DNA of 64,000 nt, taken from contig JANQEG010000027.1 of the NCBI GenBank assembly GCA_028278505.1, forward strand, positions 1 to 64,000, given 5' to 3'. The notes below the pieces were generated by a model that had not been told where the DNA came from, ran no database searches, and saw only the letters and a list, made by a program, of their open reading frames with translations. Within the stretch, counting starts at the first letter, position 1; every line of letters starts with the position of its first letter. Both the position numbers and the translations under genes were made by a program. The DNA is from Rhodobiaceae bacterium. GTDB taxonomy: Bacteria > Pseudomonadota > Alphaproteobacteria > Rhizobiales > JAKPQE01. Shown in pieces: positions 29,601-32,845 of the stretch.

Positions 29601-30649
29601 GAGTCTTGGGCAATCAGGTTGGGTCATATCCTGCGTGTCTGACATAGTTGGCGCATTCGTGGTCCGAGACGGCTTGGAGTGCGGATTTGAGGGCATCGCA
29701 GAGCGTATCGAAACAGCGCGCAGCCGCACCGCGGACGATGGATTTGAGCTTTGCGAACAGCATTTCGATGGGATTGAGATCAGGCGAGTAGGCCGGCAGG
29801 AAGCGCAGCTCGGCGCCGCGCGCCTCGATCGCCTTGCGGGCGGCGGCGTTCTTGTGGACGCTGAGATTGTCGCAGATCACCATGTCGCCTGGCTTGAGCG
29901 TTGGGGCGAGCGCCTGTTCGACCCAGACGGCGAAGGTTGCGCCGTTGATTGGGCCGGGGATCAGCATCGGCGCGTCGATGCGGTCGCTGCGCAGAGCCGC
30001 GATAAAAGTGTTGTTGTGCCACTTCCCGTGCGCAACGGCGCCGATGCAGGGCGCGCCGCGCACGCAGCGTCCGCGCGACCGCGTCATCTTGGTGTCGAAG
30101 CCGCTCTCGTCGATGAAGACGAGCGAGCGGCCATCAAGCTCTTTCATCCCCGCGCGCCAGTCCGCCCGGGCTTCGGCGAGGTCGTCGCGTTGCCGCTCGG
30201 CGGCAATGATCGTCTTTTTTTACGCGTGACGTTGTGGCGGGCCAGCAGGCGACCCACCGCCCATCCGGAGGTCTCGACATCCTCTTGCGCCAGACGCGTC
30301 ACGATCTCATGCAGGAAGATGTCCGGCGTCTCCTCGACCAGTGCGAGGATTTTCGTCGCATGGGCCTCCAGCGCCTGTGAGCGCCGATCGCCGCCCATCG
30401 GCAGGGCCTCGGCGCGGCTTTCAACACGCCAGATCGCCGCCCAGCGGGTCGCCGTCGAGCGCGCCACCAGAAGACGCCGACCCGCCGCGCTCGCCGACAT
30501 TCCTTCTTCAAGCAACGCCACAAAGCGGCGACGCAAATCTCCCGAATACGGTTTTCCCATCCAAGCCGACCTCCTTCCGGCCAGCAGCTTGAATCAGAAA
30601 ATCAAACAGATGGGAATCCCGCGCGACTCAAATCGGTCGCTCAGGACTC
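29601..30649 (-). mobile_element. IS630-family insertion sequence, complete
   Basis: A 1049-bp element. Its ends are imperfect inverted repeats: GAGTCTTGGGCAATCAGG from 29601 and, on the other strand from 30649, GAGTCCTGAGCGACCGAT (17 of 25 positions match). It is flanked by TA at 29599-29600 and 30650-30651, the target duplication of the IS630/Tc1-mariner superfamily. The transposase fills the element in two overlapping frames. It looks intact. Confidence 0.9.
29614..30560 (-). CDS. IS630-family transposase, made by -1 frameshift from two frames
   Basis: Frame A (30144-30560) gives an N-terminal helix-turn-helix region: MGKPYSGDLRRRFVALLEEG and SAAGRRLLVARSTATRWAA. Frame B (stop at 29614) gives the DDE domain: LVFIDESGF, MVICDNLSVHKN and NPIEMLFAKLK supply the D, D and E. 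Seven A residues in the coding strand (30215-30221 as T on the plus strand) lie where the frames overlap. A -1 slip there joins HNVTRKK to KTIIAAERQRDDLAEARADW and continues into frame B, giving one full transposase of about 315 residues. Such slippery A-runs are known in IS630 elements, so this is probably programmed and not a mutation. Confidence 0.88.
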
Positions 30650-30817: not shown

Positions 30818-31684
30818 TCACGCCGATCCGCGCTTTTCCAGCCACAGATAGTAGGCGGAGTGATCGAGGTCGCCGCCGTCGAAGTCTTCGACCAGGCTGC
30901 GGAAGCCGGCCTCGGCGGCGTCGGCGAGCGGCAGCTTCAGGCCGGCTTCACCGGCTACGGCGAGCGCATTGTGGATATCCTTCAATTGCGATCGGGACCT
31001 GCCGCCGGGCGCGAAGTCGCGCTTCACCATGCGCTCTCCGTGCAGTTCAAGGATGCGGCTGTCGGCGAAGCCGCCGCGCAGGGCCGTGCGCAATATGGCG
31101 GGATCGCAGCCGGCGCTCTCGCCGAGCTTGAAGGCTTCGGCGACGGCGCCGATGGTGATCGCGACGATCAACTGGTTGGCGAGCTTGGCCGACTGGCCGG
31201 CGCCGAGCGGCCCGATCAAATTCGGCCGGCCCATCGACTGAAGCACCGGCCGGGCGCGCTTCATGTCGGCCGCCTCGCCGCCGACGAAGATGGTGAGCGT
31301 CGCGGCCTCGGCGCCGGCGACGCCGCCGGAGACCGGGGCGTCCAGAAAGCGCACGCCCCGCGCGGCCGCGATCCCGGCCAGCTTGCGGTCGCGGTCCGGC
31401 TCGACCGAGCCCATGTCGATGATCAGGCTGCCGGGGGACACCGCGTCGATGACGCCGTCATCGACCAGCACCGTCGTCGTCACCGGCCCGTCATAGAGCA
31501 TGGTGATGACGATGTCGGCCTCGGCGACGGCGTCCGCCGGCGTTTGATGAACCGTGGCGATATCGTCGAGCTGCTCGGCCTTGTCGGGGCTTCTATTCCA
31601 GATGTGGAGGTCGTGCCCGGCGGCGGCGAGGTTGCGCACCATCGGCGCGCCCATCAATCCGGTTCCGAGAAACGCCACCCGCAT
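30818..31684 (-). CDS. NAD(P)-dependent beta-hydroxyacid dehydrogenase (tartronate semialdehyde reductase-like)
   Basis: A 288-residue enzyme of the 3-hydroxyisobutyrate dehydrogenase/GarR family. The cofactor motif is MRVAFLGTGLMGAPMVRNLAAAG, the substrate-binding motif is FLDAPVSGGVAGAEAATLTI, and the catalytic Lys is in GAGQSAKLANQLIVA. Members include 2-hydroxy-3-oxopropionate (tartronate semialdehyde) reductase; hydroxypyruvate isomerase in the same block supports that. ATG at 31684 has GAAGGAGC upstream. Removal of the MITE at 31704-31970 would place this gene about 14 bp after the ABC permease stop, so it was probably the last gene of that operon. Confidence 0.85.
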   Translation of the reverse strand: MRVAFLGTGLMGAPMVRNLAAAGHDLHIWNRSPDKAEQLDDIATVHQTPADAVAEADIVITMLYDGPVTTTVLVDDGVIDAVSPGSLIIDMGSVEPDRDRKLAGIAAARGVRFLDAPVSGGVAGAEAATLTIFVGGEAADMKRARPVLQSMGRPNLIGPLGAGQSAKLANQLIVAITIGAVAEAFKLGESAGCDPAILRTALRGGFADSRILELHGERMVKRDFAPGGRSRSQLKDIHNALAVAGEAGLKLPLADAAEAGFRSLVEDFDGGDLDHSAYYLWLEKRGSA

Positions 31685-31703
31685 CCCATTGCTCCTTCGT
31701 TTA

Positions 31704-31970
31704 GAGCGTGTCATGGCTATATTGAACCATTCTGCCGGAGACGGTTTGGTTCAAGGTCAAGGGCTTTGGCGACGGGCGTACCGGCAGTACGGCCGAGACA
31801 AAGCCCGCAGGATTTGGGCCAAACCGGTCCGGCCCTTCGGATTTCATTTCGGCGGGCGCCCGCGGTGTCGCGGCTTTTGCCCGGAGCCCCACTCCGCGCT
31901 GCAAGCCGCTCCTGGCGGATCGCCTCGCCGGAATGAAACAGAATTGATCCAAGCTAGCCATGACACGCTC
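31704..31970. mobile_element. MITE-like element with 16-bp perfect terminal inverted repeats
   Basis: A 267-bp non-coding element flanked by TA on both sides (31702-31703 and 31971-31972). Its ends are exact inverted repeats, GAGCGTGTCATGGCTA, with weaker similarity continuing for about 20 bp more (ttgaaccattctg against ttggatcaattctg). It has no transposase. The TA duplication and GAG start are like those of IS630-group elements, so a transposase of that kind may move it. It lies inside the stop codon of the upstream permease gene. Confidence 0.85.
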
Positions 31971-32845
31971 TAACCCTTAACGGCCCCGGCGGTCATGCCG
32001 GTGATGATCTGCTTGGAAGCGATGAAGGTGAAGATGATCGGCGGCACCGCCAGAAGCATCCCCGTCGCCATGATCACGCCCCAGTCGATATCATGCTCGG
32101 TGAGCGAATTCACGATCGTCACCGGCACGGTCCGCGTATTCCGGTCGAGCAGCGTGTTGGCGAGCAGGAACTCGTTCCAGGCGATGCGGAAGGTGAAGAT
32201 CGAGGCCGCCGCCAGGCCCGGCTTGATCAGCGGCAGCACCACCAGGAAGAAGGTCTGGAACGGCCCGGCGCCGTCCATCTTGGCGGCCTCTTCGAGCTGG
32301 ATCGGCACCTGGACGATGAAGCTTTGCAGGATCCAGATGACGAACGGCAGGTTCAGCGCCACATAGACCAGAATGATTCCGGCATAGGTGCCGTCGAGGC
32401 CGAACTGGTAGGTCCAGATACCGAACACCGGCACCAGGAGCACCGCCGGCGGCACCATGCGCATGATCAGCGTCGTCAGCGAGATCGCGCCGCGCCCGAC
32501 GAATTTGAAGCGCACGATCGCGTAGGCCGCCATGCAGCCGAGCACCAGGGTCAGGCCGGTCGAGATCAGCGCGACAAATATCGAGTTGCCGAGCGCGCGG
32601 CCGAAGGTCGGATCGCAATAGTCGACGTGCTCCGGGGCATAGGGCAGCACGTTGCAGAGCACCGTTTCGTAGTTCCGGATCGTGGGGATGAAGAACAGGC
32701 TCGCGGTGTCGTCCATGATGTCGACATTGACCCTGAACGAAGTGAGCAACATCAACAGGATCGGCGCGATCGACATCATCACCAGGGCGACGATGAGGGC
32801 GTAATAGGTCGGGTTCTGCCGGTCGTAGGGGGAAGCGGCGCTCAT
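31970..32845 (-). CDS. Sugar ABC transporter permease (MalG family)
   Basis: A 291-residue inner-membrane permease with about six transmembrane segments. The coupling EAA motif is in LEEAAKMDGAGPFQTFFLVVLPLIKPGLAA (about residues 190-220). The start overlaps the other permease gene by four bases (ATGA). The last sense codons GTT AAG GGT are followed by TAG, of which TA is the MITE target duplication and G is the first base of the MITE; without the MITE the gene would end in TAA at the same place. The protein is therefore unchanged by the insertion. The substrate is probably a sugar or sugar acid. Confidence 0.92.
   Translation of the reverse strand: MSAASPYDRQNPTYYALIVALVMMSIAPILLMLLTSFRVNVDIMDDTASLFFIPTIRNYETVLCNVLPYAPEHVDYCDPTFGRALGNSIFVALISTGLTLVLGCMAAYAIVRFKFVGRGAISLTTLIMRMVPPAVLLVPVFGIWTYQFGLDGTYAGIILVYVALNLPFVIWILQSFIVQVPIQLEEAAKMDGAGPFQTFFLVVLPLIKPGLAAASIFTFRIAWNEFLLANTLLDRNTRTVPVTIVNSLTEHDIDWGVIMATGMLLAVPPIIFTFIASKQIITGMTAGAVKG

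Follow-up and report, generated by a model that had tools for sequence, protein, structure and literature searches.

A probable modular MITE of the IS630 type at an ABC transporter permease stop codon

The window, i.e. the complete stretch of 64,000 nucleotides from a Rhodobiaceae bacterium analyzed here, harbors a 267-bp element where an ABC transporter permease gene has its stop codon. The most likely interpretation (probability about 0.8) is a non-autonomous, modular MITE of the IS630/Tc1 type, which inserted into the TAA of the permease and is tolerated at stop codons. A wider formulation is put forward more tentatively, namely that the core is shared across alphaproteobacterial orders, that it has repeatedly exchanged its two ends together, taking ends from various IS630 transposons, and that stop codons serve as safe sites at which a new TAG is made.

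Structure of the element and its insertion site

The element (31704..31970, no assigned strand, subfamily A) was delimited by sequence, by an inverted-repeat scan and by comparison of copies, and comprises 267 bp without the adjacent TA dinucleotides. Its termini are the left inverted repeat GAGCGTGTCATGGCTA at 31704..31719 (plus strand) and a right repeat at 31955..31970 (minus strand), the 16 bases of which are identical to the left ones with 0 mismatches; in a shuffled version of the window, GAGCGTGTCATGGCTA with up to three mismatches would turn up 0.4 times on average. Target-site copies TA are located at 31702..31703 and 31971..31972, the latter being at the same time the first two bases of the permease stop. 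The longest open reading frame inside the element has 86 codons, which is below the size of a transposase. Being short, devoid of transposase-coding capacity, bounded by terminal inverted repeats and present in multiple copies, the element is a MITE.

The permease gene (PF00528; 31970..32845, minus strand; profile match and gene call) ends on the minus strand with ...AAG GGT TAG, where the stop codon (31970..31972, minus strand) is composed of TA and the element's first base, G. When the element and one TA are removed, the reconstructed site becomes GGT TAA, and a spacer of 16 nt, ACGAAGGAGCAATGGG, then leads to the ATG of a dehydrogenase gene at 31684, so that the stop is TAA without and TAG with the element. 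Exact 16-bp inverted ends with TA on both sides, a start within the permease stop and the restoration of GGT TAA had all been described in the first-pass annotation and are confirmed here, as is the short distance to the dehydrogenase start, which measures 16 nt instead of the approximately 14 bp given there. The permease protein had been considered unchanged by the insertion; in agreement with this, orthologous permeases in ten other genomes (from a 397-genome sample of the order) share the same last residue, VKG followed by the stop, and the end of the protein is thus unaffected. Mechanistically, the element would have entered the TAA codon at its TA by a cut-and-paste step, with this TA and the first G of the element rebuilding the stop as TAG.

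Upstream of the permease gene, on the same strand, lie a second ABC transporter permease (PF00528; 32842..33759, minus strand, profile match) and an extracellular solute-binding protein (PF01547; 33874..35202, minus strand, profile match). The next gene past the element encodes a 3-hydroxyisobutyrate dehydrogenase-type NAD-binding protein (PF03446, PF14833; 30818..31684, minus strand), the start of which was set by the Shine-Dalgarno sequence AAGGAG at 31692..31697 (minus strand), immediately outside the element. Since both genes are on one strand, would be 16 nt apart without the insert and retain an intact Shine-Dalgarno sequence, it is plausible from the sequence that the insertion split an old permease-dehydrogenase operon. 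The gene downstream of the orthologous permease differs in all ten relatives from the 397-genome sample. At 31684-31714 the element end provides an in-frame upstream ATG (MTRSKRRSNG...), and automatic annotation may run the dehydrogenase into the MITE.

Copies and distribution

A search of the host genome for further copies, suggested by the first-pass annotation, returned 45 BLAST matches, some of which are the two arms of a single copy; they correspond to at least 29 copies, each with at least one readable end. Nine contigs start or stop within subfamily-A copies. Relatives of the element are present in Rhizobium, Sinorhizobium, Bauldia, Kiloniellaceae and others; they were found in four other genomes of a 61-genome set that includes the host, and in 72 plasmid records, mostly of Rhizobium, three of which were examined in detail. 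The core pattern occurs in at least 119 stretches of named genomes, again mostly Rhizobium, and its exact form in 7 of the 397 genomes of the order, each with more than one match. No match was obtained in phage sequences, and one matching stretch in viral contigs.

Aligned copies are usually 271-276 bp long including both TAs. Several Rhizobium copies (L050, L058, L083, L115, L116, L117, L124, L153) measure approximately 354 bp, about 81 bp above the usual 273, which suggests a second insert in the core. Three palindromes of 49-73 bp with little beyond the element ends (G030:C1:62582-62654, L147:6582-6654 and G682:C1:1754524-1754572) are apparently internally deleted derivatives.

Empty sites

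Precise empty sites are available for two related Rhizobium copies. The copy on pRL12 of R. johnstonii, which sits in the stop codon of a LacI-type gene, corresponds to a clean 271-bp gap at CTAG in comparison with R. indicum and WSM1325, and the ligD copy of R. binae to a clean 355-bp gap at TTAA in comparison with Rhizobium sp. K102. In R. binae the ligD stop was converted from TAA to TAG, the same change as in the window permease. In the comparison of L050 with L190 the gap is longer and the empty site is not a clean one. For the window copy itself no empty site was found, as no relative with the same permease-dehydrogenase pair was detected, and the only other genome of the host's family has no permease ortholog at 1e-90; the comparison with empty sites proposed in the first-pass annotation was made for the two related copies. 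The original reading of a MITE within a stop codon is supported by the repeated occurrence of the element in the host genome, by the TA flanking each end and by the clean empty sites of related copies.

At the empty site of R. indicum and WSM1325 (L051, L187, L188) another repeat, TAGAGCATGATG, already starts at that stop codon, which is therefore used by two different repeats. The TAGAGCATGATG repeat is presumably RIME-like.

Target preference and placement at stop codons

Among the matches listed, at least 119 stretches, 112 elements have a left end and 90 have both ends. The TA is preceded by C at 116 and by T at 70 ends, together 186 of 202 ends among these matches, and the commonest insertion site is CTAG. 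A TA target with preference for CTAG, as expected for mobilization by IS630, is thus found among the matches listed.

Among the same matches, 151 of the 202 ends were usable for a frame comparison, and in 42 of these 151 the TAG is entered by an open frame of 150 codons or more, compared to 8 and 13 in the other two frames. Seven of the 90 elements with both ends were too close to a contig edge, leaving 83 insertions, which were reduced to 80 upon merging of similar flanks. Gene predictions came from a codon-usage caller that was checked on no more than three annotated loci. On this basis 36 of the 83 insertions, or 34 of the 80 independent ones, lie on a stop codon, and three insertions run into a gene (among the matches listed). 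Restricted to YTAR sites, for which 29 of the 80 insertions were set aside because their sites were decayed or of another kind and 2 because they lay within genes, 25 of 49 insertions among the matches listed are on a stop codon versus 120 of 998 comparable non-coding controls (odds ratio 7.6, p 1.8e-10); for CTAG alone the figures among these matches are 13 of 24 versus 42 of 207 (p 7e-4). The excess among the matches listed is smaller when measured against sites just downstream of genes, the ratio of stop codons to YTAR sites within 50 bp downstream being 26:9 compared to 124:130 in the control (odds ratio 3.0, p 0.006). In 22 of 34 cases among these matches the closest gene downstream is convergent, versus 294 of 795 in the background (p 0.0018). 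Within the host genome a stop codon is touched by 8 of the 29 copies, a figure without a matched control, and the only two other TAGAGC palindromes found are too few to judge stop-codon placement.

Because the element ends begin with G, a TAA or TAG codon hit in that frame is always turned back into a stop, TAG, and the upstream protein stays untouched. The concentration at stop codons is most likely the product of a CTAG/YTAR preference and of the persistence of insertions that do no damage at the 3′ ends of genes, and much of the pattern is what is expected from a CTAG-preferring element filtered by selection. Should the element instead be kept at stop codons as a useful mRNA 3′ hairpin, which stabilizes or bounds the transcript, or should the transposase be drawn to gene ends, this would agree with the excess persisting against YTAR sites immediately downstream, with the convergent neighbors and with the very stable fold described below; but convergent gene ends are also the least harmful places for an insertion, and among the matches listed the stop-codon genes read the element in sense in 15 and in antisense in 20 cases, i.e. 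without orientation bias. As the fold has no consistent strand preference either and a terminator-like site is absent by scan, usefulness or targeting is considered rather unlikely, and tolerance of insertions that do no harm is preferred.

An autonomous IS630 of Sphingopyxis granuli likewise forms the annotated stop of an adjoining IS3-family transposase gene (L248:673-675).

Subfamilies, termini and the IS630 partner

Across the subfamilies the core is kept while the outer stems are unrelated. Subfamilies B and C of the same genome have a mean identity of 0.81 in the core and of 0.30 in the outer stem, from which it follows that both ends have been replaced together. A possible route is that one side captured a new end and that arm-to-arm copying via the hairpin followed.

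For comparison, 21 IS630 loci and 7 plasmid relatives were examined. Paired TAGAG ends are present in the window's own IS630 (L191), L193, L194/L198 (the same IS), L242, L243, L246, L247 and L248. The longer TAGAGC is found at both ends of L193, L194/L198, L243, L246, L247 and L248 and at one end of L242 and L196, L196 having one TAGAG and one TAGTG end; in L192 and L201 a single end was seen, and the other loci examined, including L244 and L245, showed no TAGAG pair by the method used. Judged by these bases, the TAGAGC ends of the element are those of alphaproteobacterial IS630 transposons. The agreement extends to 14 terminal bases between L196 and subfamily C (TAGAGCGTCGGGCG) and to 12 between L192, a truncated IS630 of the host genome, and subfamily A of the window (TAGAGCGTGTCA). 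When 12 stems were compared with IS630 ends, identity reached well past TAGAGC in two only, perhaps three.

The IS630 in the window (29601..30649, minus strand; profile match and end comparison) has a split transposase frame and imperfect ends TA-GAGTCYTGRGC. It was rejected as the partner of the MITE, as its ends read TAGAGTC and not TAGAGCGTG. Located about 1 kb from the MITE, it contains two frames, of 138 and 177 codons, with an overlap of 4 nt; this split may reflect programmed frameshifting or decay.

No complete IS630 with the exact ends of the window element, as sought in the first-pass annotation, was found in the host assembly, which is 84.9% complete, nor was one with the ends of the Rhizobium element found in R. 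johnstonii 3841. The proposed IS630-type mobilization is supported by the shared terminal sequence. DDE_3, the catalytic family of IS630, was matched in 6 of 13 other element-carrying genomes and gave no match in 7. These seven genomes, and an outer stem that varies in sequence while its pairing stays, would suit a mover that reads a folded single strand in the manner of REP-associated transposases, but such an enzyme is very unlikely in view of the TA flanks, the clean TA empty sites and the TAGAGC ends common to several IS630 elements.

With an IS630-type mover, the outer stem would be exchangeable, and since the subfamily stems match different IS630 transposons, the core probably came under different IS630 transposases.

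Folding of the element

Folded as a single strand, the window element is far more stable than shuffled versions of itself (z -10.1) and forms a branched hairpin from end to end. In 20 diverse copies, standard pairs occupy 92.8% of the cells of an 80-pair fold compared to 35-41% with the partners slid, and 49 of the 80 pairs show changes on both sides, in a fold that was derived from the same alignment as used for scoring and in copies that are related and thus not independent. The plus strand is more stable in 51 of 69 copies; the sign is not constant across 19 distinct copies and tracks composition. With neither strand consistently favored and genes reading the element either way, a DNA palindrome or symmetric RNA hairpin fits better than a strand-specific RNA. 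Rfam gave no match within the element up to E 1, and a scan of the element found neither a terminator-like site nor an outward promoter. A structured RNA or riboswitch was rejected for lack of an Rfam match and of strand bias, and a terminator or outward promoter on the result of the scan. A conserved structured RNA gene, repeated incidentally, is highly improbable as the primary nature of the element, for the covariation and the constant length of 271-276 in the aligned set are countered by the missing Rfam match and strand bias, by the patchy occurrence (7 of 397 genomes by exact core pattern) and by the mobility evident from TA ends and empty sites, pairing being also expected from arm-to-arm copying in replication or repair. 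For the MITE, a conserved core would have spread across the alphaproteobacteria, folding together with its ends as a branched hairpin.

Implications and comparison with known systems

The element offers a testable pattern, in which a parasite without genes persists in gene-dense genomes by landing harmlessly, and a MITE could change its transposase by changing both ends together. This would explain some of the TAG-converted stops and operon gaps in rhizobial genomes as well as breaks between assembly contigs.

Six sequence strings of the element family occur in no relevant paper within a search that excludes subscription journals. The search, which covered few subscription papers and none of those on RIME and CIR, also returned no account of this family or of a matched replacement of two ends. 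The defining CIR features (approximately 110 bp, conserved GANTC) are not those of the present element, which has 267 bp and, in an alignment inspected by eye, no GANTC common to all copies. RIME is approximately 108 bp long. Already in print are IS630-mobilized MITEs, the use of TA as a target and repeats providing stop codons, the last exemplified by GTAG REPs (PMC3733652).

RIME and CIR are, like the window element, palindromic intergenic repeats of alphaproteobacteria, CIR having approximately 110 bp, two arms and TA at the ends (PMC2229807); in length the 267-bp window element differs from both. IS630 and Tc1-mariner elements (ISY100, IS630) insert into TA and duplicate it, (PMC2170065), and IS630 prefers CTAG (Tenzen and Ohtsubo 1991, cited in PMC2170065); the window element has the same TA target and ends that begin with TAGAGC, but carries no transposase. 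The ends of GTAG-type REP elements often give flanking genes a TAG stop (PMC3733652), and REPs measure 20-40 bp; the window element supplies TAG stops as well, but is 267 bp long and flanked by TA. RUP from Streptococcus pneumoniae is a MITE linked to IS630-Spn1 (PMC2229807): both RUP and the window element are non-coding, use a TA target and have ends resembling an IS630, whereas RUP has 107 bp and the window element 267 bp; the core of the latter is branched and, across its family, comes with several outer stems unrelated to one another.
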